A stretch of 33,757 bases of DNA, taken from the NCBI GenBank assembly GCA_945877625.1, contig CAMCSF010000007.1, positions 1 through 33,757 of the forward strand. The letters are read 5' to 3'. The stretch comes from Methylomonas koyamae (GTDB taxonomy: Bacteria > Pseudomonadota > Gammaproteobacteria > Methylococcales > Methylomonadaceae). Each line of letters begins with the position of its first letter. Within the stretch, counting starts at the first letter, position 1. Shown in pieces: positions 2,466-33,378 of this stretch. The notes below the pieces were generated by a model. It searched no databases, was not told the origin of the DNA, and saw nothing but the letters and a program-made list of their open reading frames with translations. The position numbers were made by a program, and so were the translations under genes.

Positions 2466-2828
2466 CTAACCAATTAAACACCCCCGTATATCTTGATTGG
2501 AAAACGGTTTAGCTAAAAAGCCGCAAATAATTCCTTCTTCAATCGCCTGCCGAATCACTGGATCATCGGAATAATGGTAACCCGACACCAAAAACACCCT
2601 CGGCCTAACGCCTTCTAAACGACTCGCAAAACGCGCCACATCTAAGCCGTCCATATCCGGCAATTTGGCATCTAAAAACACAATCGAAAAATCACCCCGC
2701 GCTAATTTAAAACAGGCATCTTCACCGCTGTAGGTAGTGATGATGTTGAAGTTTTCAGATTGCAAAATATGCTCAATCGCCCAGCACATATCTGGTTCGT
2801 CATCGACGATTAAAATTGAAGTGGTCAT
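2466..2828 (-). CDS. Single-domain response regulator (receiver)
   Basis: ILIVDDEPDMCWAIEHIL...VFLDAKLPDMDGLDVA...FLAKPFS receiver signature. The start is 4 nt after the histidine kinase stop. Confidence 0.88.
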   Translation of the reverse strand: MTTSILIVDDEPDMCWAIEHILQSENFNIITTYSGEDACFKLARGDFSIVFLDAKLPDMDGLDVARFASRLEGVRPRVFLVSGYHYSDDPVIRQAIEEGIICGFLAKPFSNQDIRGCLIG

Positions 2829-2832
2829 CAGC

Positions 2833-4314
2833 TTACTGCAACGGCAAAGTGACAATAATCGTCGCGCCTTCACCATGTCGGCTTTCGGCCTGAATCGAGC
2901 CCAGATGCTGCTGAATAATGCTGTAGCAAATTGACAAACCAAGACCTGTGCCCTGCCCGACTGGCGACGAGGTATGAAAGGGGTCAAAAATCTTATCCAG
3001 CTCACCGGCCGGAATCCCAACCCCGGTATCAGAAATACTGACAATTACCCTATCCTCAAAAGTGTCGGTGACTATCGTCAACAAACCACCGTCCGGCATC
3101 GCGTTGATGGCGTTTAAAAAGATATTCATAAACACCTGCTGCAACAAACCCGACACCCCCGGCACTAAAATCGGCTCTTGATGACTAGGCAAAACAATCT
3201 GCACTTTCTGGACTTTGGCCTGATTAGCGATTAACTCGGTGGTTTCTTTCAGCACCGCCATCAAGTCGACTTCGACCATTTCGGTATCGAGTGAGGAACG
3301 GGCAAAGCGCAGTAAATTTTCAATAATCGCAGAAGCTTTTTGAATATTGGTTTGGATTTTGTTGGAACATTCGCGATGAAACTCTGCGCCAATATCATCT
3401 TGCAGCAAAAACTGCGCTGCCGCCGAACAAACCGCCAAAGGATTGCGGATTTCGTGAGCAATCCCACCGGCCATCACCCCCAATGCACTGAGTTTATGCG
3501 ACTGCCGCAACTGCAATTCCAACTTACGCCGCTCAGCCAAATCCCGCCCGACAATCACCGTCCCCACCGTCAAACCATAATCATCTTTCATCGGCGAAAA
3601 CACCCAAGAAATCAGAATACTGCCGCCATTATTCGGCGCTAATAAATGAAATTCAGTGGTATGCGATTCATTGCTGGCCTTCATCCGCATAAAAATCATC
3701 CGCACTGTTTGCTGCTGATTTAGATCGCAAAAATCATAAAAATGTCGGCCATGCACTTCTTGCGAACTCAAGCCGGACAATTTCTCAGCCGCCGAATTCC
3801 AAGTCAAAATCCGACCATCAATATCGGTAGAAAGCACAATATCACTGGCACTTTCTACCACCGACGCCAAATGTCGCTCAACCCGCCGCACTTCTTCAGA
3901 AAGCCGCACCTGCTCGGTAACATCTTCCATCAACAACATAATTTGATTAGTGGGAATCGGCAAAATCGAATAGTAATAAATCCGAATCGGCACCCCCGGC
4001 GCTCGATAAGTCATTTTTTGGCCGTTGATCGGCTGTCGATTGCGGAACACGTTACGAATTCGATCTTCAATGCCGGTGTTTTCTAAAATCACCGGTGGAA
4101 ACACATCCGATAAAGCTCGCCCAACAGTATCGGCCTTGCTACGTTGGCTTTTTAGTAGGAAATTGCGATTGACTGATACGACGTGGAGTTTGTCATCGAC
4201 CATTAACACTGAAGAGGGAATGGCGTCTAACAACATGTCGTATAACAACTCGAAATGATCGGTGCTGGGTTTTTTTAGCAATTTATTGGTCATAGTTATG
4301 ATGTTAGAGAGCAA
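2833..4314 (-). CDS. PAS-domain sensor histidine kinase (NtrB-like); alternative start at 4293
   Basis: PAS-like segments, H-box LGVMAGGIAHEIRNPLA, and ATP-binding motifs ISDTGVGIPAGELDKIFDPFHTSSPVGQGTGLGLSI. Confidence 0.92.
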   Translation of the reverse strand: MLSNIITMTNKLLKKPSTDHFELLYDMLLDAIPSSVLMVDDKLHVVSVNRNFLLKSQRSKADTVGRALSDVFPPVILENTGIEDRIRNVFRNRQPINGQKMTYRAPGVPIRIYYYSILPIPTNQIMLLMEDVTEQVRLSEEVRRVERHLASVVESASDIVLSTDIDGRILTWNSAAEKLSGLSSQEVHGRHFYDFCDLNQQQTVRMIFMRMKASNESHTTEFHLLAPNNGGSILISWVFSPMKDDYGLTVGTVIVGRDLAERRKLELQLRQSHKLSALGVMAGGIAHEIRNPLAVCSAAAQFLLQDDIGAEFHRECSNKIQTNIQKASAIIENLLRFARSSLDTEMVEVDLMAVLKETTELIANQAKVQKVQIVLPSHQEPILVPGVSGLLQQVFMNIFLNAINAMPDGGLLTIVTDTFEDRVIVSISDTGVGIPAGELDKIFDPFHTSSPVGQGTGLGLSICYSIIQQHLGSIQAESRHGEGATIIVTLPLQ

Positions 4315-4321
4315 TTAATTT

Positions 4322-4399
4322 GTAGGGTGTTTTCGCCGTCAGGCAAAACACCGAGCTTCAAAGCTTTGGCGGATTGCCTGACGGCGAATCCACCCTACC
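4322..4399. repeat. Intergenic inverted repeat (GTAGGGTG..TTCGCCGTCAGGCAA // TTGCCTGACGGCGAA..CACCCTAC)
   Basis: Two nested complementary arm pairs read directly from the sequence, between the gvp locus end and the histidine kinase gene. Confidence 0.85.
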
Positions 4400-4487
4400 A
4401 ACTTTCAATAACATTACCCCCGTTATTCCTGTTAGCTTCGTCATTCCAGCGAAGGCGGGAACCAATCCACACACCTAACAACATCAG

Positions 4488-5105
4488 CTAATTAACAAAG
4501 CTATAAACCGGCCAAGGCCCACTAACAACGCCCTGGTTATCAATATCCGCCAACATCTGCTGAAACAACATTAACTGTTGCCGAGGCACTAGATAACTCA
4601 GCAAATAACTCTGATAGCCATTAAACACATCAACCACCAAATTCTGCTGTCGATACAAACCCGCTAACGCCTTATTGATCTCGCAAACCTGCCGCTCAAT
4701 AAATGCCGGCACAGCATAAGCCTGTTTCCTCGCTTGCAAATACGCCAAACCACTCTGCGCGGAACAATCCGCTGGCCTCAACTCAGTTAACAATCGCACC
4801 CCCATCTCGTCACAATCTGCCAACTCAAGCAACAAAGCCTGATAATCAGTTTGATGCGCCCGCAAATATTCGATAACAGCCGCCTCATCGACCAAAACAC
4901 TGCCATAACGAATCGGGATTAAAGTGGTTTGCTGATGCCATTGCTGAATTTGCTGGCCATAAGCCAAAACCTCGACACTATCCCGACTAATACTGTGATT
5001 AACCGTCTTAACCAGCGCCGCTAAACCCGCCGCTTTAATCACAGCAAACTCAGGCGCTATCTCACCCAGCGCTTGCTCGGCAATCACCCCATAAACTAAC
5101 AACAT
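4488..5105 (-). CDS. Gas vesicle protein, GvpF/GvpL family
   Basis: LLVYGVIAEQ..., IPIRYGSVLVDE and C-terminal GPWPVYSFVN match GvpF/L. The start at 5105 overlaps the upstream stop. Confidence 0.82.
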   Translation of the reverse strand: MLLVYGVIAEQALGEIAPEFAVIKAAGLAALVKTVNHSISRDSVEVLAYGQQIQQWHQQTTLIPIRYGSVLVDEAAVIEYLRAHQTDYQALLLELADCDEMGVRLLTELRPADCSAQSGLAYLQARKQAYAVPAFIERQVCEINKALAGLYRQQNLVVDVFNGYQSYLLSYLVPRQQLMLFQQMLADIDNQGVVSGPWPVYSFVN

Positions 5106-5848
5106 CAATTCACAAAACTGTAAGCAGCCCAAGGGCCGGTGAGGCGAAACTGAAAGCCATAAGGCTGATAATGCTGGCTAAGTAAAGCAATCTGTAACTC
5201 AAACGCTGGCAAATGCTCTTGCGCCAGCAAAAACGCCCAATTCAACACTTTGTCATCGCCCAGTTTTCGCTGCCTTGCATCACGCGCCAACCGCATTAAG
5301 ATTTGCCACTGCGCGGCCAAACACTCGGCTAACCAGTCATTTAATTGCCCCAGCAAATGACGGCGGAGTTTCTGTTCTTCTAAATGCCGCCTGCCCAGCG
5401 TTTCCGGTAAGCTGAATCGGCCATTGGCCAAACCTTCTGCTAATAAAACCTCAACCGCTTGCTGCCTGTCCAAACTAGCTTCCAGCGCCCATTCCTGACA
5501 ACCAGCAATTTGCTCAAGCTTGCTTAACACCTGTTCGGCACGTTGCGACATGGTCTGTTGCAAGGCTGCAAAACTGGAAAACAAGGTGCCAAACGGCAAA
5601 GGATAAACAGCGCCTTGTTGACTAAATTTTTCAATCACCCAACCATGCCGACAAACCCTTGGCGTCAACCATTCGACGTTTTGCAAATTCAGCTCGCCTA
5701 ACTCGCCCGTAAACTCAGCGACATCAACCAAACTAATCATCGCAGCAAGCCCTGCGTACTGATAAATCATCACCGCTTCGCTGGATAAGCTCGAATCCGA
5801 CAAGGTAAAGCCATACAAATAAATCGCTTGCTCGGCTTTGAGCATCAT
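5105..5848 (-). CDS. Gas vesicle protein, GvpF/GvpL family
   Basis: IYLYGFTL..., YPLPFGTLFSS and C-terminal GPWAAYSFVN match GvpF/L. It sits within the gvp locus. Confidence 0.85.
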   Translation of the reverse strand: MMLKAEQAIYLYGFTLSDSSLSSEAVMIYQYAGLAAMISLVDVAEFTGELGELNLQNVEWLTPRVCRHGWVIEKFSQQGAVYPLPFGTLFSSFAALQQTMSQRAEQVLSKLEQIAGCQEWALEASLDRQQAVEVLLAEGLANGRFSLPETLGRRHLEEQKLRRHLLGQLNDWLAECLAAQWQILMRLARDARQRKLGDDKVLNWAFLLAQEHLPAFELQIALLSQHYQPYGFQFRLTGPWAAYSFVN

Positions 5849-7989
5849 TGGTAATACTCGTCGGCAAACATGTCGGTAATCACTCGATCAAAATCGGCTT
5901 GCTCGACCAATACGGTTTGCGCTTGCGGCAAAGCACTATCCTCGCTTTGCTGCACAGCTCGCCGCAGCGCCATCAAAGCCGCTCGATTACAAACCGCGGC
6001 TAATTCGGCACCACTGGCTTGGGCGCAACGAAGGGCGATAGCTTCAACATCAATCGCTGCTGCCAAAGGCTTATTGCGTAAATGCACCGCTAAAATCTGC
6101 TGTTTAGCCGCTTCATCCGGTAAGCCCAATTCGATAATGTCATCGAAACGTCCTGGGCGCAGCATGGCGGGATCAATCAAATCCACTCGATTGGTCGCGC
6201 CTAATACAAACACCCCTTTCAGCTCTTCAAGGCCATCCATTTCTGACAAAAACTGGCTCAACACCCGTTCGGCAACGTGAGAATCGGTAGACCCCTCGCC
6301 ACGCGAAGGCACCACCGAATCGACTTCATCCAAGAAAATAATGCACGGTGAGGCTTGGCGGGCTTTATGAAACAACTCGCGCACCCCTTGTTCGGAATCA
6401 CCGACATAACGCGACATTAAAGCTGGGCCTTTAACCGAAATCACATTAACGCCACTTTCATTGGCCACCGCTTTCGCAATCAAGGTTTTACCAACCCCCG
6501 GCGGCCCAACCAATAACAAACCTTTGGGCGGCTTAACCCCCGCTTGTTGATACAACTCAGGATATTTAATCGGCCATTGCACCGACTCAATCAATCGTTG
6601 ACGAATGCTGTCCATGCCGCCGACATCCTCCCAACGCACATCAGGAATATCGACAAATAATTCACGAATCGCTGAAGGCGACACTTCGCACAAGGCGGCG
6701 CGAAAATCATCCAGCGTCACGGTTAATTCGGCCAAACGCTGATAAGGCAAATCGGCGCTATTGAAATCAATTTCCGGTAATAAACGCCGCAGAGCGCTCA
6801 TCGCCGCTTCACGACACAAAGCTTCTAAATCGGCACCGACAAAACCGTGCGTCACATCGGCCAGCAAATTCAAATCGACATCGGCATTCAACGGCATACC
6901 GGTGCTGTGAATTTCGATAATTTCACGGCGGCCTTCGCGGTCGGGAATCGGGATATTAATTTCGCGATCAAATCGCCCTGGCCGCCGCAAAGCCGGATCA
7001 ATCGCATTCGGCAAATTAGTCGCAGCAATCACGATCACTTTGCCACGCCCTTTCAAGCCATCCATCAAAGCCAATAATTGCGCCACAACCCGCTTTTCGA
7101 CATCGCCCACCACTTTGTCGCGGTGCGGGGCTATCGAATCAATTTCATCGAGAAAAATAATGCTCGGGCCTTTGCGCCCTGCTTCGTCAAAGATTTTGCG
7201 TAAATGCGCTTCGCTTTCGCCGTAGAACTTATGGACGATTTCTGGACCGCTGATGCTAAAAAATTGGGCGTCGGTTTCTTGGGCGATGATGCGAGCGATC
7301 AAGGTTTTTCCGCAACCGGGTGGGCCGCTAAGCAACACGCCTTTCGGGGCATCAATCCCCAATCGATCAAAGACTTCGGGATAGCGCAACGGCAGTTCTA
7401 TCATTTCCCGAATTCGCCGCACTTGGCCTTTTAAGCCACCAACATTTTCATAGGAAAGCCGTTGCTGGCTGTGTTCGGCTTTTTTGCTATCAACTGGGGT
7501 ACCAATCACCAAAGTGGTGGTGGGATTGATTAAAACCGGCGCGTTGGGCTGAGTGCTCTCGACTTTAAAATCTGCCGAGCGACTGCCAAATAAATGCGCC
7601 CGCACCAAATCACCTTGCTGAACCGCCAAGCCATCCAGCAAGCTGCCGATGTAATCCAAATCGCGGGGATTGGGAGTGATGGAAATCGGCATCAGCGTCA
7701 CCCGGGTTGCCGGTTTGCAGAGCATGGCTTCAATGCTGACTTTTTCATCCAGATTTAAGCTGGCATTGCGGCGGCTTAAACCATCCAGTTGCACGATAGC
7801 TTTGCCGCGCAAATCAGGATAAGTTGGCATTAACTTGGCAACACAGCTGCCCTTTTTGCCGCTTAGTTTTAAGGTGTCACCAATCGCCAAACCCAATTTA
7901 GCCATATCAGCCGGATCAAGCCGCGCATAGCCTCGGCCAATGTCTTTCGGCAAGGCTTCAATCACTTTTAGCGTTAATGCCTCAGCCAT
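5845..7989 (-). CDS. CDC48/VAT-like AAA+ ATPase with N-domain and two AAA modules
   Basis: Two Walker A motifs (GPPGCGKT, GPPGVGKT), two Walker B motifs (IIFLDEIDSIAP, IIFLDEVDSVVP), and a CDC48-type N-domain (LPKDIGRGYARLDPADMAKLGLAIGDTLKLSG). The Met at 7989 is preferred over 8007. Confidence 0.93.
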   Translation of the reverse strand: MAEALTLKVIEALPKDIGRGYARLDPADMAKLGLAIGDTLKLSGKKGSCVAKLMPTYPDLRGKAIVQLDGLSRRNASLNLDEKVSIEAMLCKPATRVTLMPISITPNPRDLDYIGSLLDGLAVQQGDLVRAHLFGSRSADFKVESTQPNAPVLINPTTTLVIGTPVDSKKAEHSQQRLSYENVGGLKGQVRRIREMIELPLRYPEVFDRLGIDAPKGVLLSGPPGCGKTLIARIIAQETDAQFFSISGPEIVHKFYGESEAHLRKIFDEAGRKGPSIIFLDEIDSIAPHRDKVVGDVEKRVVAQLLALMDGLKGRGKVIVIAATNLPNAIDPALRRPGRFDREINIPIPDREGRREIIEIHSTGMPLNADVDLNLLADVTHGFVGADLEALCREAAMSALRRLLPEIDFNSADLPYQRLAELTVTLDDFRAALCEVSPSAIRELFVDIPDVRWEDVGGMDSIRQRLIESVQWPIKYPELYQQAGVKPPKGLLLVGPPGVGKTLIAKAVANESGVNVISVKGPALMSRYVGDSEQGVRELFHKARQASPCIIFLDEVDSVVPSRGEGSTDSHVAERVLSQFLSEMDGLEELKGVFVLGATNRVDLIDPAMLRPGRFDDIIELGLPDEAAKQQILAVHLRNKPLAAAIDVEAIALRCAQASGAELAAVCNRAALMALRRAVQQSEDSALPQAQTVLVEQADFDRVITDMFADEYYQ

Positions 7990-7996
7990 ATCCACC

Positions 7997-8509
7997 TCAG
8001 TTTGCAAATTTGATTTCTAAAATACCGTTACGGCAAGATCGGCTGATTTGCTGGCTTTGATAAGCACGCGGCAAGACGATTTCTTTATGATATTTCTTGC
8101 TGCCTTTTTCGGCGTGCAGGGTTAGTACATCACCGTCTAAGGCTAAATGAATGTCTTCATCAGCGACGCCGGGCATTTCAGCTAACACCAATAAATGCTG
8201 TGCGTCATCAATCACATCAATCAACGGCTCAGCGACTTCTTGAACCGTAGTTTCACCGGTGATTTGATCGTGATGGAGATTGCCAAACGGCTCGATTTTC
8301 GGCTCATCGTTTTCGTTAATACCCATTTTTACCGAAAAACCATAAACCGCTTTGGCGTCTTTACCACCACCCTTATCAACATCAAACACCCCGCTACGCT
8401 TGAGTTGCTCGCCAGTTTGCGCCAACTCATTTAATCTGCCGACCAAATCCCCCAAGCCACGCAAAATGCCCTCGACATTGCCAGTTACTTTGTCATTTTT
8501 ATTAGCCAT
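7997..8509 (-). CDS. gvpH: Gas vesicle protein GvpH, Hsp20 family
   Basis: The C-terminal Hsp20 domain (PLIDVIDDAQHLLVLAEMPGVADEDIHLALDGDVLTLHAEKGSKKYHKEIVLP) follows a variable N-terminal region, in gvp context. Confidence 0.8.
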   Translation of the reverse strand: MANKNDKVTGNVEGILRGLGDLVGRLNELAQTGEQLKRSGVFDVDKGGGKDAKAVYGFSVKMGINENDEPKIEPFGNLHHDQITGETTVQEVAEPLIDVIDDAQHLLVLAEMPGVADEDIHLALDGDVLTLHAEKGSKKYHKEIVLPRAYQSQQISRSCRNGILEIKFAN

Positions 8510-8604
8510 GATTTTTGCCTCGGTGTTTGTGAGTTTTTATCGGTGCAATATTGCTAGGGGGCATTCCATGTACCCTACGCCTACCATTAAGGCTCTAGCC
8601 AACC

Positions 8605-10017
8605 CTAATCACTAAACCGCTTAATCTTGGTCAGCAAAGTTTTGTAATCAATCTGCAAACGGCGTGCGGTTTCGGCTTTATTGCCTTCGGTTTGTTTCAG
8701 CATGTTTGAAATAATCACCCGATCTAAATAATCAGTATTTAACTGCTTAATTTCCTTTAACGACTTGCCTTGCAGATTCAGCGGTTCTAAAAAATCCAGA
8801 TAATCATTGGCCGTGTTTGGAGTCACTGTTTCTAGCGACGTCGGGTCAGGACTATGTAAATTTAGCTCTCGCAAACCGATTTCAGTTTCAGCCATTAATG
8901 CCGCTCGCCGAATCACCGCCCGTAGTTCACGGACATTGCCCGGCCATTGATAATGGGTCAGCAGCTCAATCGCGACCGATGCAAATTTCAAAGGCGGCTT
9001 GCCTAATTCGACACAGACATCGTTCATAAAACGCTTAGCTAAAAACAAAATATCGTCTGGCCGCTGCCGCAAGGGCGAAATGCGCAACACAAATTCATTG
9101 AGTCGGTAATACAAGTCTTCGCGGAAACTGCCATTGACCACCGCATCCAGCAGATTCTCATTACTGGCCGCAACCACCCGAACATTGACCGGAATCGGCT
9201 TATTGCCGCCAACCCGATAAATCACCCGTTCTTGTAACACTCGCAATAATTTCGACTGCGCTGGCAACGGCATATTGGCGATTTCATCGAGAAACAAAGT
9301 GCCACCTTCTGCGGCTTCAAACTTACCGGTGCGTTGCTGGTCTGCGCCGGTATAAGAGCCTTTTTCGTGACCAAATAATTCGTTTTCAATCAAAGTATCG
9401 GGAATCGCTCCGCAATCGAGCGGGATAAAAACCGCATCGGCTCGCTTGCTGGCTAAATGCAGATTGTTGGCAATCAACTCTTTACCTGTACCAGTTTCGC
9501 CTTGAATAATCACCGAAAAATCGGTTTGCGCGACACAGAGAATATTTTGGGTTAAGGCCTGAATATCGGCACTATTGCCCATCGCATTGGCGATTCGCAA
9601 TTGGGTTGCTTGGCTGGCTTGATCACTCAGATCAACACCGCCACGAGTCTGCACGGCTCGATTGACTAGCTCCAAAACCCGTGAATTTTCAAACGGTTTG
9701 GCGATGTAATCCCAAGCCCCCGCTTTCATAGCACACACGGCGCCTAAAATGCCGCCATTGCCGGTAATCACAATCACCGGTAACTGCGGATAGTGAGCAT
9801 GGGCATAGGCCAAAACGTCCATGCCACTCGCGCCGGGAATAATGTTATCGAGCAATAACACGCTCGGCTCTCGCTGCGCCAATAAGCTCAGTGCGCTATT
9901 ACCATCGTAAGTTTGCTGGGTTTGATAACCTGCTTGTTGCAATAAATGTGACAACAAATCACAAATATCCTGATTATCATCGACCACTAACACATAGCCA
10001 CGATGTTTATCTTTCAC
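8605..10017 (-). CDS. NtrC-family sigma54-dependent response regulator
   Basis: Receiver (VLVVDDNQDICDLL...VLLLDNIIPGASGMDVL), AAA+ domain with GETGTGKE and GAFTGA-like GSYTGA (ELFGHEKGSYTGADQQRTG), and a C-terminal Fis-type HTH (NKAETARRLQIDYKTLLTKIKRF). Confidence 0.95.
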   Translation of the reverse strand: MKDKHRGYVLVVDDNQDICDLLSHLLQQAGYQTQQTYDGNSALSLLAQREPSVLLLDNIIPGASGMDVLAYAHAHYPQLPVIVITGNGGILGAVCAMKAGAWDYIAKPFENSRVLELVNRAVQTRGGVDLSDQASQATQLRIANAMGNSADIQALTQNILCVAQTDFSVIIQGETGTGKELIANNLHLASKRADAVFIPLDCGAIPDTLIENELFGHEKGSYTGADQQRTGKFEAAEGGTLFLDEIANMPLPAQSKLLRVLQERVIYRVGGNKPIPVNVRVVAASNENLLDAVVNGSFREDLYYRLNEFVLRISPLRQRPDDILFLAKRFMNDVCVELGKPPLKFASVAIELLTHYQWPGNVRELRAVIRRAALMAETEIGLRELNLHSPDPTSLETVTPNTANDYLDFLEPLNLQGKSLKEIKQLNTDYLDRVIISNMLKQTEGNKAETARRLQIDYKTLLTKIKRFSD

Positions 10018-10138
10018 AACTCAACCACCCTGTTTTACTTGTCAGCATCCGTGGAAATTAGGAAGTCAGTTTATTAAGCAGGGTTGATGGTGTCTGTTCG
10101 TAGGCAAACATTAATCGCGTGCGCTGAGCGAAGCCGAA

Positions 10139-10233
10139 GCGTAGGCCGGAATAAGCGCAGCGTTTCCGGCGAAAGCTTGCATGGTTGCCGATAAGCTATC
10201 CGCGCGAGACGCTGCGCTTATTAGCGCCTACGC
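10139..10233. repeat. Imperfect inverted repeat, arms GCGTAGGCCGGAATAAGCGCAGCG / CGCTGCGCTTATTAGCGCCTACGC
   Basis: The 24-nt arms match at 21 positions by my comparison. It lies between the 191-aa gvp-linked gene and the sigma54 regulator. Confidence 0.85.
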
Positions 10234-10241
10234 CCCAAGCT

Positions 10242-10817
10242 TCATTGAGTCGCCGTCGGCTTTCCCAAGGGCTGAATCAATAAAATATCCTCAGCTAATT
10301 TGGCTTCGATGTTATGGGTCATGCCTAAAAACAACACCGCCATTTCATCTTCGAGCAAGGTTTCATTAATCCGAGTCGCAATAAAGTTATCGCGTTGTTC
10401 CAACAAAGCTTGAGCCTTTTCTAAACTGGCTGGTTTTTCAACTTTGGCTTTCAGTAAATCGCCCATTAACTGCCGTTCTTCCAACAACAATCCCACCGAT
10501 TCGGTGCCGACTAAAGTCGCACCTTTGGCTTGCAATTTTTGTAACAACTGAAAGTTTTGACTACCACAGGCGGCCACATTTTCGACAATCCGATCCACAT
10601 TGTCGCAAACCGGCAAGCCATCTTGATAGAGCTTTAGCTGTTGATAATTAAGATTAAAACTATCCAGCGTGGTTTCTATCATGCGCCAAAACTGCTCCAC
10701 CGCTTCGTAATATTGCTTACTTTGAATTTCAGTTCGGGTATTGGCAACAGCATCGGCAAACGAGCCTAAATCTTGAGGACAATGAATAATCGGGAAATGT
10801 ATCAATGCTCGCATCAA
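10242..10817 (-). CDS. Uncharacterised gvp-linked protein (191 aa)
   Basis: Same-strand operonic position directly after gvpJ. Distinctive motifs: HFPIIHCPQDLGSF, LYQDGLPVCDNVDRIVENVAACGS, LFLGMTHN. Confidence 0.75.
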   Translation of the reverse strand: MMRALIHFPIIHCPQDLGSFADAVANTRTEIQSKQYYEAVEQFWRMIETTLDSFNLNYQQLKLYQDGLPVCDNVDRIVENVAACGSQNFQLLQKLQAKGATLVGTESVGLLLEERQLMGDLLKAKVEKPASLEKAQALLEQRDNFIATRINETLLEDEMAVLFLGMTHNIEAKLAEDILLIQPLGKPTATQ

Positions 10818-10833
10818 ACGATCCTAGTAATGG

Positions 10834-11142
10834 CTAAAGTAGCGGATTTAATTGCGCTTCCAAGCGTTGTAAGCGTTGCTCTAAATCTAAATCCGCGTTG
10901 GGCAACGCCGCTCTAGCTCGGGAATCAAAGGCCGGATTACCGCTCCACCAATCCAAGCCCATTTCCACCGCTTTATCGACCGAACAAATCAATAAACGGA
11001 TTTCCAAGGTTAATAGCTCGACTTCGACCAGTCGGATGCGAATATCGCCGCTGATCACAACCCCTTTATCCAACAAGCGTTCCAGTAAATCGGCAACGGT
11101 GGTTGAATCGGTTGAATTGGTTATTTTTGTGTTGCTGCTCAT
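10834..11142 (-). CDS. gvpJ: Gas vesicle protein GvpJ (GvpA-family domain)
   Basis: LLERLLDKGVVISGDIRIRLVEVELLTLEIRLLICSVDKAVEMGLDWW is a GvpA/J core with a C-terminal extension. Confidence 0.88.
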   Translation of the reverse strand: MSSNTKITNSTDSTTVADLLERLLDKGVVISGDIRIRLVEVELLTLEIRLLICSVDKAVEMGLDWWSGNPAFDSRARAALPNADLDLEQRLQRLEAQLNPLL

Positions 11143-11178
11143 CGCGGTATTCCTTAAAAAATGAGTCGAGCTAAGCGA

Positions 11179-11448
11179 CTAAACTTGATCGGCTTTCCAA
11201 TCAAGATTGGCCTCGTCCAATCGCTCGAATATCGCCTGCGCTAATCGATATAAGCCTTGATGTTCGTAGCTGTAAGCAATGTTCAATAAGGCCGATTGCG
11301 CGACACCGGCTTGTTCGCTATCACGGTACTCGCTGAGGATTTTCAGATAGCTAAATTCGGCTTGGCGAACATCGTTTTGTCGCGCTTGCGCATCGGCCAT
11401 TCTTAATAAAAACGCGGCAGTGCAAGAATCTAATTGGTTGCTGGTCAT
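11179..11448 (-). CDS. Small TPR-like helical protein in the gvp operon (about 89-91 aa)
   Basis: AEFSYLKILSEYRDSEQAGVAQSALLNIAYSYEHQGLYRLAQAIFERL reads as helix-turn-helix repeats. It is flanked by gvpK and gvpJ on the same strand. Confidence 0.65.
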   Translation of the reverse strand: MTSNQLDSCTAAFLLRMADAQARQNDVRQAEFSYLKILSEYRDSEQAGVAQSALLNIAYSYEHQGLYRLAQAIFERLDEANLDWKADQV

Positions 11449-11464
11449 CGTCATGGCGGTTTCC

Positions 11465-11749
11465 TTACAGTAATCGACCCAAAGGGCCTAAATTCAAATT
11501 TAAGTCTTCATCTTTCAGCTCAAACACCTCTCGCAAGCGTTGCAATTCTTCCGCTTGCTGCATTAAGGTTAAGCCTAAGCGTTCTATTTCTTCATCGCTC
11601 AAAGTGCCGGAATCCATACGTTTAATGGCTTGCCGCTCCAGTAATTCATGTAACAACTTGACCAAGGTTAAAACCAATTGCGCCAAGCCATTGCGCACCT
11701 TTTCACCATCAATTTCTAAGCGATTCAGCGAGTTGGCGGGTTGGGTCAT
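11465..11749 (-). CDS. gvpK: Gas vesicle protein GvpK
   Basis: RLEIDGEKVRNGLAQLVLTLVKLLHELLERQAIKRMDSGTLSDEEIERLGLTLMQ is typical of GvpK. Confidence 0.93.
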   Translation of the reverse strand: MTQPANSLNRLEIDGEKVRNGLAQLVLTLVKLLHELLERQAIKRMDSGTLSDEEIERLGLTLMQQAEELQRLREVFELKDEDLNLNLGPLGRLL

Positions 11750-11752
11750 GGC

Positions 11753-11938
11753 TTAGTCCTTATTGGGTAAATTTTGGCCGGTGGTTACCGAAGTCAGCAC
11801 CGCTTGTAGGCTTAGATAAATCAAATCGATATTGGCGACTGAAATCGTCACATCAGCTACGACAACAGCACCTTTGTTCAAGATTCGGTCTAAGGCTTCG
11901 CATAATGAAACTTGTTGGTCTTGAGCTTGGTTCAACAT
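11753..11938 (-). CDS. Short GvpA-family protein (GvpS/M-like)
   Basis: SLCEALDRILNKGAVVVADVTISVANIDLIYLSLQAVLTSV matches the GvpA core. The start lies next to gvpK. Confidence 0.8.
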   Translation of the reverse strand: MLNQAQDQQVSLCEALDRILNKGAVVVADVTISVANIDLIYLSLQAVLTSVTTGQNLPNKD

Positions 11939-11968
11939 CGACGCTCTCCTGAGTATTTTGTAAAGCCA

Positions 11969-12000
11969 TATAGGATGCGCTGTCGCTTAGCACATCCTAT
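11969..12000. repeat. Hairpin repeat ATAGGATGCGCTgtcgcttAGCACATCCTAT overlapping the ArsA-like gene stop
   Basis: The arms ATAGGATGcGCT and AGCaCATCCTAT are complementary except for one wobble. They share a core with the repeat at 16549-16630. Confidence 0.8.
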
Positions 12001-13919
12001 TTCTGACTAAGAAACATCGCTTCACCTAAAGCCGTCAGCATCGAGATACCGGCTGGATCGGTTTGCCGAAAAATCTTGATTTGCGGCAATTCGGTAAACA
12101 AGCCCAGCCCTGTTTTCAAGGCTAATGCCTCTCTCGCTACCCGAGCTTGGCAAAATCGGCATTGATTCACCGCTGTCAGTTGATTGATCAATAAGGCATG
12201 GCAATCAATCCCTAAATTCTGCAAGCTATCCAGCATTTCAATAGTTTTCTCGACCGCTAATTCGGTCGCTATCGTCACCGCATACAATCGCGTTTGCTGC
12301 GGATTTTGTAACAAACTGTGCAGCTTTTTTAAGCCGCGCGACAGAGCCACCAAACGCGCCGATAAATTGGGCAATCGCAGCACTTGCCGATATTTCAGTA
12401 ACAACGCAAAAAACAGCCTTAACCAATCGCGGATTAACGCCGGCATTTCCAACAACCGTAATAAATGCCCGCTCGGCGCGGCATCCACGATAATCATGTC
12501 ATAACGGCCTTGATCGATATGTTCGATGATTAACGTAAGAGCAATAATTTCATCTAAACCCGGCGGCGCTAAATCCAGTAAATGTTCCATCACCTCGCGA
12601 TCAAAGCTAATGTCTATCTGCGGCAGGGCTTGTTGTAAAAACTCGGCCAGTTCTTGGCGAAAATTACGCCGCACACTGTCGAACTCGGCTTCGGCATTGA
12701 CTTCTTGTCCATCCAAATCGCCCATCACCTGAGTGGGTAAAGCCTGTAGTTTGAGCTTTAAACAATCACTCAAAGAATGTGCGGGATCGGTTGAAAACAA
12801 TAACAAGCGCAAATCAGGATATTGATGCTGTAATTGCAAAGCGGTGGCACAGGCCATAGTGGTTTTACCAACCCCGCCTTTGCCGGCAAAAATTAGTAAG
12901 CGTAAATCTTGGCTAGGCAATGGTTGAGGATTGATCACCTGTGAACTCAAGCGTTGATGACCGGTTTTAATTGTCAGTTTTGACATTGAAAGTCGCTGGG
13001 CTTGCTGCCAAAAATCAAGCAATAACTCACCACGCGGCTCGGCTACCAGCAAAGGCAAACTCCAGAAACTTAGGCTTGGGATTCGTTTCAGCGCCTCTTG
13101 CAAGGCGATGATTTGCCGATTGCGTTCGGCAATACAGGCTTCACAGTGGTTTTCAGCTTGCAAGGGATTGACCACGATTTCAGCAACCGCAATCTGCAGG
13201 GTCTGCAAGGCTTTCAGCAAATCCAGACTCTCCTCAACGCTCATCCGCTCGGCCTGCATCACCAACACAAATCGACAACGCTGTTTATCGGTGATGACTT
13301 GTTGCATGGCTTGCAGTTGTTGATTCATGTCCAGCAAAAACTGGTCTAAATGATCCCGCTGATGGTTGCCAGCAAACCGACGTCGCATATAACGATGTTT
13401 TGCCAGCAAGGTGTCTAAAGCGCTTAACCATCGATGTATCAAGGTCGGCATTTCCAACAACCGCAAGGTATGACCGGTCGGTGCGGTATCGACAATAATC
13501 CGCTGGTATTGGTCTTGCTGTAGCCAGTCGGCTAACTCGAAATAGGCGGCTAATTCATCCATGCCCGGCATCGCCGCATCCATTAAACCGTGAATATCTT
13601 CGGCATCGAGGAACGTGCCGCGATTGGCGATTTCTTGCAGTAAAGCATCGTATTTGGCTTTGAAATCATGCAAGCTGGCGGCAGCATCTAATTCACGAAC
13701 GAGCAGATTTTCTGGCAGTGCTAAATCCGCCAAAATATGCCGTAGCGAATGGGCTGGGTCGGTGGAAACCAACAAAAACCGCTGTTGTGGCTGTTGTCGC
13801 GCCAGTTTTAAAGCCGCTGTTAGCGCGCAAGTGCTTTTGCCTACTCCGCCTTTGCCACCAAAAAATACTAATTTCAGCGCTGAGGCTTGTAAAAAATCCG
13901 GTTGGTTAGCCCTGTTCAT
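11997..13919 (-). CDS. Tandem ArsA/Get3-like ATPase in the gvp locus
   Basis: Two deviant Walker A motifs (GGKGGVGKST, AGKGGVGKTT), two STDPAHSL motifs and two CxxC motifs (HCEACIAERN, QCRFCQARVA). Confidence 0.93.
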   Translation of the reverse strand: MNRANQPDFLQASALKLVFFGGKGGVGKSTCALTAALKLARQQPQQRFLLVSTDPAHSLRHILADLALPENLLVRELDAAASLHDFKAKYDALLQEIANRGTFLDAEDIHGLMDAAMPGMDELAAYFELADWLQQDQYQRIIVDTAPTGHTLRLLEMPTLIHRWLSALDTLLAKHRYMRRRFAGNHQRDHLDQFLLDMNQQLQAMQQVITDKQRCRFVLVMQAERMSVEESLDLLKALQTLQIAVAEIVVNPLQAENHCEACIAERNRQIIALQEALKRIPSLSFWSLPLLVAEPRGELLLDFWQQAQRLSMSKLTIKTGHQRLSSQVINPQPLPSQDLRLLIFAGKGGVGKTTMACATALQLQHQYPDLRLLLFSTDPAHSLSDCLKLKLQALPTQVMGDLDGQEVNAEAEFDSVRRNFRQELAEFLQQALPQIDISFDREVMEHLLDLAPPGLDEIIALTLIIEHIDQGRYDMIIVDAAPSGHLLRLLEMPALIRDWLRLFFALLLKYRQVLRLPNLSARLVALSRGLKKLHSLLQNPQQTRLYAVTIATELAVEKTIEMLDSLQNLGIDCHALLINQLTAVNQCRFCQARVAREALALKTGLGLFTELPQIKIFRQTDPAGISMLTALGEAMFLSQK

Positions 13920-14167
13920 TACTCGTCACCAATCATGGCATCGTCTTCATCCAAGGCATCTAAACGGTCGAGTAAAAGGCTTTCTTGTTGGTCAAATTCC
14001 TGTTCGCTGATTTGGCCGGTTTCTAGCTGCATATACAATTCGGTCAAGCTGTCTCGAATCCGGTCGGCTTCACCGCTTAATTCTTCTTCGGCTAATTCAT
14101 GGACTTTGCGAAAAATCCAGTTGATGCCTTTAACCGGCGCAAATAGCAAGTCATCGACTAACAACAT
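13919..14167 (-). CDS. gvpG: Gas vesicle protein GvpG
   Basis: LVDDLLFAPVKGINWIFRKVHELAEEEL...SLTELYMQLETGQISEQEFDQQESLLLDRLD is typical of GvpG. It overlaps the ArsA-like gene start. Confidence 0.93.
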   Translation of the reverse strand: MLLVDDLLFAPVKGINWIFRKVHELAEEELSGEADRIRDSLTELYMQLETGQISEQEFDQQESLLLDRLDALDEDDAMIGDE

Positions 14168-14176
14168 CGCGCCAGC

Positions 14177-14983
14177 TCAATCAACATCAACGGTTTTGCT
14201 TTTGGTCTTTGCGCTCGGTGCGTGTAAATCGAGGGTGATGAAATTATGCGGTGCCCAAGGGCCGGTGTAGTCAAACACATAGCTGTTATCGAAGGCTTTC
14301 GAGGCTTCAAACACGCCTTTGGCGAAGTCTTCCAAGCTGTCACGTTCGACTAAACAAGCTAGATTCATTACGTCTTTTTCTTTTTTGACGGGGTTCTCGA
14401 TGATGTCCTCGCAATAATCGGCCATGATTTCTTTGACCGTATCGGTAGCTTGTTTGCGGTCTGCGCTACGCAAGGATTCATAGAGATTGCCTAATTGAAT
14501 TTTCTCTTCGCGTCGGGCATTACTGGGGTTGTATTTATCCCAAATCGCATCACGGGCTTCGCTTAATACCGAATGCTGTTCGACAAAATATTCATAAATA
14601 TTGGCCACATCCCAAGCCACGCGCAGCCCCATTTCAACGCGACCATTGAGCCGTTCAAAATGCTCGTTGATACTTTTTTTATTCGCCGCTAACAGTTTTT
14701 GCACCGCTTCAGCATTGCGCGCCAGCACGCCAAACCGCATTGGTAATACCGTGCCTTCTGTCGTCAAAGCATGAAGCACCGCTTGATGGGCGCTGATGTT
14801 GCGCCGCTCCGGTCGTAAACGGGTACTTAAAGTATCGCTAACCACCGCTCTTAAACCGTTTTGGTCTATTGCGTAAATCGGCGCAGCTTCTAAGCCGCGC
14901 ACCGAGTATTTTGGGGCGCTATCATCAGCGGCACATAAGGCATAAAGCACTTTGCCGCGATGCTGTTTATTAGCAACGCTCAC
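14177..14983 (-). CDS. gvpF: Gas vesicle protein GvpF (GvpF/L family)
   Basis: HQAVLHALTTEGTVLPMRFGVLARN..., GRVEMGLRVAWD and FDYTGPWAPHNFI match GvpF/L. Confidence 0.9.
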   Translation of the reverse strand: MSVANKQHRGKVLYALCAADDSAPKYSVRGLEAAPIYAIDQNGLRAVVSDTLSTRLRPERRNISAHQAVLHALTTEGTVLPMRFGVLARNAEAVQKLLAANKKSINEHFERLNGRVEMGLRVAWDVANIYEYFVEQHSVLSEARDAIWDKYNPSNARREEKIQLGNLYESLRSADRKQATDTVKEIMADYCEDIIENPVKKEKDVMNLACLVERDSLEDFAKGVFEASKAFDNSYVFDYTGPWAPHNFITLDLHAPSAKTKSKTVDVD

Positions 14984-15167
14984 GATTAACTCCCTGTTGC
15001 TGTTGGATGGCGGTGATTCGATCTAAGCGTTTTTGCTGTTGCAGATGAAGCCGGCCAAGATCGGCCAAGCGTTGTGATTTGCCCGTCAAATGGCGAACAG
15101 CGCGAAAGCTTTTAATCATGGCTGAAGTACGAATCTGACTTAGCGTGTGGATTGCATTCATCGTCAT
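14970..15167 (-). CDS. Small basic uncharacterised protein in the gvp operon (about 64-66 aa)
   Basis: MTMNAIHTLSQIRTSAMIKSFRAVRHLTGKSQRLADLGRLHLQQQKRLDRITAIQQQQG. It begins a few nt after the upstream stop and overlaps the gvpF start. Confidence 0.6.
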   Translation of the reverse strand: MTMNAIHTLSQIRTSAMIKSFRAVRHLTGKSQRLADLGRLHLQQQKRLDRITAIQQQQGVNRERC

Positions 15168-15171
15168 CCCC

Positions 15172-15468
15172 TCAATATTTAATCCGTAAACCCAAGGCTT
15201 TTTTACTAGCAGCGGGCTGTTCTGGACTGGCATAAACCGCCGCTGCGCCAGCTAGTAGCCAATGCTTTTCCTGATCAATTTCCGCTATCCGGCTATTGAT
15301 CGCCGCAATCCGCGCCGCGGCTGCTTCGCGTTCTTTGGCGCGTCGGCAACGCTCTAATTCCAATGCGCCGACTTGGAAATAATCGCGATGGGTTTGATGA
15401 TCGCCTTTGACGCGACCGGAATGGGTTTTTATATCGGACAGAGTGCGGCGTGGACGGGTACTAATCAT
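15172..15468 (-). CDS. Small coiled-coil-like gvp-linked protein (98 aa)
   Basis: RRTLSDIKTHSGRVKGDHQTHRDYFQVGALELERCRRAKEREAAAARIAAINSRIAEIDQEKHWLL. It has a 4-nt overlap with gvpN. Confidence 0.75.
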   Translation of the reverse strand: MISTRPRRTLSDIKTHSGRVKGDHQTHRDYFQVGALELERCRRAKEREAAAARIAAINSRIAEIDQEKHWLLAGAAAVYASPEQPAASKKALGLRIKY

Positions 15469-16469
15469 AGTGATGGCTCGACGATTTTGATTTTGCTGGC
15501 CGCTTTGACAGACGCCAGCGGTTTCAATGGCGGGCAGATGTTACGAATCACTTCATCGACCATTTCATGAAAAACCGATTGCCCTGCCCGCTGGATTTTG
15601 GCGGTTTCCATACTTAAAACGTCGTAACAAATCGCGTGGAATAATTTATCGCCATACCGCGGTTTCAAGCCTTGCAGACTTAGAATCCGCGCAATCGCAA
15701 TCCCCGCTCTTAAACCGTGTTTGGTTTGATGTTCGTTACCGCGCAAGGCTCTGACAATATCGACAATAAACGCCGATTCGCTGACATCGAGTTCTGAACG
15801 GGCATGAAGAATTTGCAGCTCGGTATCACGATCCGCTAAACCCACATTGATAGTAATCATCCTATCCATTAAGGCATCTTGGGTTTTGTGAGTGCCGGCG
15901 TATTCTTCTGGGTTAGAGGTGAAAATCGCCCGAAAACCGGGATGAACATCCATATAACCTTCACCAGCACCCCGCAATCCTGGCAGATTCAAAATCCCTT
16001 CCGATAAGACTGATAACAGCACGTTATTGGTTTCGGCTTTGGAGCGGTTGAACTCGTCATAAATCAACATATCGCCATTGCGACACGCGGTGGTCAAGCG
16101 GTTATCAACCCACATCCGGTTCATTTGCTCTTCGGTTTTTAATACCGAATGAATGTAATTATCGACCACGCTGCTTTTGCGGTAGCCAATGTCTTTACCG
16201 GTTAAATCGGAACTGACGAATTCTTCATTACCTTGCAACAACGTCACGGGACGACCCCATTGCGCAGCTAAATGAAACGCCAAGGTGGTTTTACCGGTAC
16301 CCGATGGGCCAGCAAAATGCACGGGGTAGCCGCTGTGTAAATAAACCATTGCCCGTTCCATAATTTCTTTGACGTAATTAGTTTGGACAAAGTGATCACT
16401 GGCTTCCGGAACGATTAAATCTTCTTCGCGCGGGTAATTGGCCTTAGAAAAACTGGCTTTGTTAATCAT
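15465..16469 (-). CDS. gvpN: Gas vesicle AAA+ ATPase GvpN
   Basis: HFAGPSGTGKTTLAFHLAAQWGRPVTLLQGNEEFVSSDLTG, LIYDEFNRSKAETNNVLLSVLSEGIL and FTSNPEEYAGTH are diagnostic. The Met at 16469 is preferred over 16514. Confidence 0.95.
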   Translation of the reverse strand: MINKASFSKANYPREEDLIVPEASDHFVQTNYVKEIMERAMVYLHSGYPVHFAGPSGTGKTTLAFHLAAQWGRPVTLLQGNEEFVSSDLTGKDIGYRKSSVVDNYIHSVLKTEEQMNRMWVDNRLTTACRNGDMLIYDEFNRSKAETNNVLLSVLSEGILNLPGLRGAGEGYMDVHPGFRAIFTSNPEEYAGTHKTQDALMDRMITINVGLADRDTELQILHARSELDVSESAFIVDIVRALRGNEHQTKHGLRAGIAIARILSLQGLKPRYGDKLFHAICYDVLSMETAKIQRAGQSVFHEMVDEVIRNICPPLKPLASVKAASKIKIVEPSL

Positions 16470-16538
16470 AAAAATAATACTCCTGTGCCATACGGCGCTC
16501 CTTGCCGATTGCAAGGAAATGAGGGGGAATTAGCGCGC

Positions 16539-16664
16539 TTAAGTTAAGGCATAGGATGTGCTGAACAATGTGCTGTGCATCTGGTTGAGAGCGATGGATG
16601 CAAAACATGATTGATCAGCACATCCTATGCCTCGCTCAGAACAAACCCAAAATCCTTAACTTAA
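16539..16664. repeat. Large nested inverted repeat between the GvpC-like gene and gvpN
   Basis: Outer arms TTAAGTTAAGG (16539-16549) / CCTTAACTTAA (16654-16664); inner arms GCATAGGATGTGCTGA (16549-16564) / TCAGCACATCCTATGC (16615-16630). Both pairs are perfect. Confidence 0.9.
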
Positions 16665-16677
16665 TGACTGACTATCG

Positions 16678-17333
16678 TTAACGTTTTTTCGGTTTGTTTT
16701 TGCTGGTTTTGTAAATATCCACTAACGCCGTATCTGCTGGATTGACTGATTTTTCTGGCTCAGCCGGTAAATCGGGCTCTGGCGCTTGCTGTTCCATCAA
16801 CAATTGCTGAGGTATCGCCGGTTCAAAATGCAAGGTACTCAGAGCGCCAATGGCGTTTTTTTTTTCGACACACCGGTATCAAAAAACACCTGATGGGCAT
16901 GCAGCCGATCTTGGGTAATCTCGCTAATCAAAGCCGCCACACTGTTTGCCATGTCCGAAACAAAATCCGCTCTTGCAGTCACACTGCGTCTGGCCATATT
17001 TTTGTGATCCACAGCGAATTTAGTTAACAAATGCTGGGTGTTTGTTTTTACACCCGCGACAAACGCCCGACGCTCACCGCGACTTTTGCGGCTGTTGGCT
17101 TGGCGAGTCCGAGAAAAATCGTTTAATAAACGACTAACATCGTGGCGATTATCGGCCACGGCTTGCGCGCGTTGTCGAGCGTCTTTGCTCGCATTAAAAG
17201 CACGGGTTGTAGCGAAATCGGACAGTAAAGCTCTGACACTATGATTGCGGGCAGATTGATTAGCGCGGCGCTGGTCATGACTACTATCAATATCGCTGCG
17301 TAAGCGAGTCATATCATCGGTTAAGCGTCCCAT
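16678..17333 (-). CDS. GvpC-like helical-repeat gas vesicle protein, apparently split by a frame change at an A10 run (frame 0: 17333-16839; tail frame: 16857-16678)
   Basis: SD AAGGAG precedes the ATG at 17333. Repeats of about 33 aa start at VRALLSDF, VSRLLNDF, HLLTKF and VAALISEI. After the A10 tract the -1 frame stays open to a TAA at 16678-16680. Confidence 0.75.
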
Positions 17334-17420: not shown

Positions 17421-17639
17421 CTACGCAGGCGTCGCGGCGCTGGCGGTTAGGCCAATCGCTTCAGCGTATTTCAAATAAGTTTCTACTGAAGCGATAACAA
17501 CACGCGCTTCGATAGATAATAATTCGATACCTACTAATGAAACCTTGACCCAAGCATCAACAACAATGCCTTTGTCTAGGATGCGGTCAACGACTTCAGC
17601 TAAGCTAGAAGATTCTGTTGATTTTTGAACTTTTGCCAT
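17421..17639 (-). CDS. gvpA: Major gas vesicle shell protein GvpA
   Basis: [54 protein letters not shown] is near-canonical GvpA. A GGAG ribosome-binding site is present. Confidence 0.98.
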
Positions 17640-17718: not shown

Positions 17719-17734
17719 TGCTATTTTCGTGCCA
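17719..17734 (-). promoter_or_regulatory. Candidate sigma54 (-24/-12) promoter for gvpA
   Basis: On the minus strand: TGGCACG-AAAA-TAGCA, against consensus TGGCACG-N4-TTGCA. GG and GC are separated by exactly 10 nt, about 80 nt upstream of the gvpA ATG. Confidence 0.75.
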
Positions 17735-33105: not shown

Positions 33106-33182
33106 TGGGGTGAACGATGGGGCTCGAACCCACGACAACCGGAATCACAATCCGGGACTCTACCAACTGAGCTACGCTCACC
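33106..33182 (-). tRNA. tRNA-His (anticodon GTG)
   Basis: Reverse complement gGTGAGCGtagctcagttggtagagTCCCGGATTGTGATTCCGGttgtcgtgggttcgagccccatCGTTCACCCCA folds as a cloverleaf. CCA is encoded. Confidence 0.95.
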
Positions 33183-33215
33183 ATAGCGTATAACAATGTA
33201 AAAACGAGGATTTTT

Positions 33216-33292
33216 TGGTGCGCTTGGCAGGACTCGAACCTGCGACCCCCGACTTAGAAGGTCGGTGCTCTATCCAGTTGAGCTACAAGCGC
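33216..33292 (-). tRNA. tRNA-Arg (anticodon TCT)
   Basis: GCGCTTGtagctcaactggatagagcaCCGACCTTCTAAGTCGGgggtcgcaggttcgagtcctgcCAAGCGCACCA. Anticodon loop CTTCTAA. Confidence 0.95.
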
Positions 33293-33301
33293 AAAGAAAA
33301 T

Positions 33302-33378
33302 TGGTCGGGGTAGAGAGATTCGAACTCCCGACATCCTGCTCCCAAAGCAGGCGCGCTACCAGACTGCGCTATACCCCG
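33302..33378 (-). tRNA. tRNA-Pro (anticodon TGG)
   Basis: CGGGGTAtagcgcagtctggtagcgcgCCTGCTTTGGGAGCAGGatgtcgggagttcgaatctctcTACCCCGACCA. Anticodon loop TTTGGGA. Confidence 0.95.

Follow-up and report, generated by a model that had tools for sequence, protein, structure and literature searches.

The closest described precedents for the gene analysed here are two type VI secretion genes, tssM1 of Citrobacter rodentium, with a run of eleven adenines (A11), and tssM3 of Yersinia pseudotuberculosis, the inverted case (PMC4256274). In both, an A run lies within a structural gene, and transcriptional slippage, proven by experiment, gives short and long TssM variants; the slip yields the long form in one species and the short form in the other. 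In dnaX of Thermus thermophilus, polymerase slippage on A9 likewise produces two lengths of one protein, and the genomic frame encodes the long form (PMC1088944). Runs of nine or more A or T are of a length that many bacteria select against in genes (PMC1088944).

With respect to the protein, the nearest counterpart is GvpC of gas vesicles, the mark of which is a repeat of ~33 residues (PMC9501494). In Anabaena, Halobacterium and Serratia 39006, GvpC combines such repeats with a helical rod and a place in the gvp cluster, and no frame break in any of these proteins is described in the literature that we found. Haloarchaeal GvpC interacts through its C-terminal part with GvpN and further Gvps (PMC9501494). 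When GvpC is missing in Serratia, the collapse pressure falls more than threefold.

The window, that is, the whole stretch of 33,757 nucleotides that was analysed, belongs to a 2.5 Mb draft genome of 289 contigs that is 81% complete. It contains a gas-vesicle cluster, in which a GvpC-like gene is flanked by gvpA1 and gvpN. Cluster genes were named by their domains; the gvpF3 reading frame was named by position only. The features are as follows:

2466 to 15468, minus strand: remaining gas-vesicle cluster (gvpF/L, gvpG, ArsA-type ATPase, gvpA2, gvpK, gvpA3, gvrA-like, gvpH, CDC48-type gvpZ-like, gvpF2, gvrB-like and gvrC-like genes)
15465 to 16514, minus strand: gvpN, the downstream neighbour (TIGR02640 above cut-off)
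16678 to 16680, minus strand: TAA, the long-frame stop, read from the sequence
16681 to 16857, minus strand: 59-codon tail in the -1 frame, with an acidic, Pro/Gln-rich linker and a basic end, belonging to a predicted long form of 218 aa
16839 to 16841, minus strand: TGA, the short-frame stop
16856 to 16865, minus strand: A10, the predicted slippage run
16839 to 17333, minus strand: gvpC-like reading frame in the genomic frame, short form of 164 aa with 33-residue repeats
17421 to 17639, minus strand: gvpA1, the upstream neighbour (Pfam PF00741)
17719 to 17734, minus strand: sigma54-like promoter, TGGCAC-N5-TAGCA, upstream of gvpA1, read from the sequence; in Serratia, gvpA1 is under sigma54 control

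The A10 run parts the 164-residue reading frame, which ends in SKKKTPLAL, from the open tail in the -1 frame (NAIGALST...KPKKR). Reading the shifted frame through to the TAA showed that one A added to the run gives a frame of 218 residues. With A9 in place of A10, a third frame is entered, which likewise ends soon (169 aa). The position of the run, the frames and the 218-residue product had all been given in a preliminary description of this DNA and proved correct. The run is the longest homopolymer of the window. There are just 18 A or T runs of at least nine in the source genome, two of them of length ten.

The GvpC-like identity of the gene, proposed in the same description, is supported by the exact 33-residue periodicity of the encoded protein, by its predicted helical rod and by its place between gvpA1 and gvpN. 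Specifically, the periodicity of the rod has a z of 6.5 in the window protein, and a lag of 33 was the best lag in 9/9 proteins tested (z 6.2-13.3). The extended alpha-helical rod of GvpC was recovered by AlphaFold2, which predicted two long helices, 2-80 and 85-154, with low confidence at the end of the chain, residue 152 onwards (mean pLDDT 73, pTM 0.32). In contrast to the three GvpC proteins named above, the methanotroph protein matched no curated family model of Pfam or NCBIfam above cut-off, and it is named by its architecture and gene place. A profile search of solved structures returned one coiled-coil-like match (E 0.04), which was not accepted as a relative.

Several further observations were made around the gene. 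A double ArsA-type ATPase is encoded at 11997-13919, inside the gas-vesicle cluster. Between the gvpC-like gene and gvpN, at 16549-16630, there is a perfect 16-nt inverted repeat, GCATAGGATGTGCTGA, which is probably a small palindromic repeat element. The genome has similar half-sites at seven further positions, with one pair of them on contig C144, and one half is also present 3' of the gene in a relative (L006). Three tRNA genes lie on the minus strand at 33109-33378. No plasmid copies of the gvpC-like gene were found.

Homologues were surveyed in 311 genomes of the order, mostly drafts or metagenome bins, with isolates and one single-contig genome (G167) included. A GvpC homologue was present in 26 genomes and gvpN in 30. 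The methanotroph family of the window contributed 18 distinct homologues, the window included and that of the single-contig genome G167 among them. The A run is at the same codons in all 18 (A9 in three, A10 in twelve, A11 in one and A12 in two), the genomic frame stops within five codons of the lysines in 18/18, and the open tail of 59-84 codons is in the -1 frame in every case. Although run length and flanking sequence differ among these homologues, the register is constant. The homologue alignment, suggested as a check in the preliminary description, thus found run and tail kept throughout the family.

In a second family, A10-A11 occurs at the homologous place in 6/6 distinct sequences with the register inverted. 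The genomic frame continues into the tail, giving 354-369 aa where complete, and an early stop is reached by a one-base shift. A single tree branch splits the two registers (support 100/99). Taking both families, an A run of at least nine (A9-A12) marks the frame junction in 24/24 homologues. Homologues in Methylococcales that lack the tail also lack the run: in the tail-less GvpC-like genes of three gvpN-bearing genomes (G039, G084 and G058), every A run is shorter than eight. In another gvpN-bearing genome (G179), the contig stops before the GvpC gene. In two weak class-wide matches (L045 and L046), no A run within the gene reaches seven, and in a deltaproteobacterial homologue (L013) the frame is unbroken and the longest run is at most six.

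The homologues vary in other respects. The second family (L032, L034-L037) has about three more 33-residue repeats in its rod than the first. In the GvpC genes of one genus (L029 and L038), the 33-residue repeats stand in tandem and are almost identical (in L029, z is 13.3 at lag 33), and the repeat number may change easily there. In L045/L048 and L052, a gene for a protein with repeated CxxCxGxG zinc-finger-like motifs lies between a short GvpC-like gene and gvpN; L013 has a similar reading frame after its GvpC homologue.

Conservation covers the run, its register, the two ends and the two reading frames, and the tail changes in the manner of a protein-coding sequence. The short-frame stop occupies an identical column in 24/24 sequences of the two families. 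At this column, the tail-frame codon is ATA in 16 sequences, TTA in three, GTA in two and CTA in one, each followed by G; in the window and its sister it is CTG followed by AG. Codons ordinarily evolve the other way round; a varying first base with fixed next bases is the pattern that preservation of a stop in the other frame should produce. In synonymous reshuffling, the nominal products for this stop in all sequences were 4.5e-10 in the first family and 2.4e-4 in the second, with residual relatedness ignored. The median synonymous identity between sequences was 0.55 and 0.50, respectively, versus 0.42 and 0.36 at saturation; thus, the sequences are nearly, not fully, independent. Because the genomic frame of the second family encodes the long form, keeping the early stop there is sensible only if the short form is also made.

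The run itself is less telling. Given the protein and a strong preference for AAA, reshuffling produced A runs of at least nine at ~0.6 per first-family sequence, which is not rare and makes the run by itself weak evidence in that family. In a per-column scan of synonymous constraint, the gene start was strongest and the slippage region second; a column-wise synonymous measure alone would therefore have missed the site.

The tail, which in the preliminary description looked like a real acidic, Pro-rich linker with a basic end, is under purifying selection, with a pooled pN/pS of 0.47 (P 2e-4, five separate pairs). Of the 13 tail differences that separate the window from its closest relative, 10 are at third codon positions in the -1 frame. 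The tails have in common an NSIPSIAI-like start, an acidic middle rich in Pro, Gln and Ser, and a basic end; their conservation is modest.

We consider it probable, at roughly 0.7, that the gene is a gvpC homologue in which programmed, mainly transcriptional, slippage gives a short and a long form. According to this model, RNA polymerase would stutter on A10 and release transcripts of varying A number. Those with A10 would encode the 164-residue short form, consisting of the repeat rod and TPLAL. Those with one additional A, or 1+3n, would encode the 218-residue long form, in which a flexible acidic, Pro-rich linker and a lysine-rich end follow the rod. The vesicle surface would then be a mixture, the rods reinforcing the shell and the tail on some of them adding a contact, perhaps with other vesicles, GvpN or other Gvps. 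Such a contact is plausible because the C-terminal part of haloarchaeal GvpC has partners of this kind (PMC9501494).

Both GvpC forms would then be made. We infer that slippage takes place during transcription and not on the ribosome, because the runs are always of at least nine, shifts in both directions are needed across the two families, no consistent fold or strong Shine-Dalgarno element accompanies the run, and tssM provides a precedent. The likeness to tssM1 and tssM3 is not complete: those runs are in two genes only, whereas in the methanotrophs, sequence comparison shows run, register and stop conserved in several genera. Similarly, the dnaX arrangement matches that of the second methanotroph family, but dnaX encodes a DNA polymerase subunit, a different protein with a different function. 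More tentatively, and at somewhat less than even odds, the slippage ratio may be a built-in stoichiometry device that sets the fraction of GvpC rods with a basic tail, the run, stop and register having been selected and the default form swapped between the two methanotroph families.

The long form could instead arise by -1 ribosomal frameshifting on A_AAA_AAA from transcripts with the genomic number of A, which we regard as unlikely. The window run does hold this slippery heptamer in the right phase for a shift into the tail frame, and long A runs may make ribosomes slip even where clear stimulators are missing; a reporter study is cited in PMC3711429 for 10-63% frameshifting, rising as A runs lengthen from 7 to 11. 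However, the second family requires a +1 shift to its conserved short end, which -1 slippage would not supply. Stimulators were also wanting: among 17 sequences, the fold downstream of the run was within 1.2 z of zero in 12 (range +1.3 to -3.2) and none was consistent, while near the run there was no strong Shine-Dalgarno-like element and upstream pairing was weak. A mini-hairpin, CGCCATTGGCG, had been put forward as weak but compatible with stimulation. It is restricted to the window and its closest relative, in which the stretch 3' of the run folds no better than its shuffles (z +1.0 and +1.1), and the suggestion was not supported.

Much less probable still is phase variation, by which slippage during replication would switch the tail on and off in sub-populations. 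Homopolymers are known as contingency loci (PMC3711429), and the run length differs among relatives, from 9 to 12. A contingency switch should give mixed registers, and none were seen: length changes are always compensated, with the register fixed in 18/18 sequences of the first family and 6/6 of the second, on either side of one tree branch.

The preliminary description had left a choice between a miscounted or mutated homopolymer and programmed -1 frameshifting or transcriptional slippage that would give two forms of a vesicle-surface protein; conservation of run, register, stop and tail in separate genomes strengthened the latter and told against the former. A miscount or a recently broken gene, conceivable in a draft of 289 contigs, is ruled out for practical purposes by the register shared by relatives in many separate assemblies, isolates and one single-contig genome among them, and by selection on both the short-frame stop and the tail. 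Equally negligible is a separate tail gene translated by re-initiation past the short-frame stop: the tail is an open frame that changes like a protein-coding one, but its start codon is not conserved (one tail, L033, has no ATG, GTG, TTG or CTG at all, and in the others the first is 14-42 codons in), and in the second family tail and rod form one continuous reading frame.

A literature search, with most subscription papers outside its reach, found no paper linking either gas vesicles or methanotrophs with transcriptional slippage. The matches for gvpC with frameshift and for gas vesicles with frameshifting looked irrelevant by title and abstract, and vesicles are absent from the main text of a survey of prokaryotic frame transitions. 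If programmed slippage on the gvpC run is confirmed, it would be, as far as the searched literature shows, the first programmed recoding in a gas-vesicle gene, and the gene of an organelle shell protein would join the few in bacteria that are listed for programmed slippage. Ordinary gene calling would then shorten GvpC in one methanotroph family, and engineered vesicle clusters of this type should allow for two GvpC forms. Finally, the broad conservation and the natural swap of the default product make the purpose of the two forms testable.
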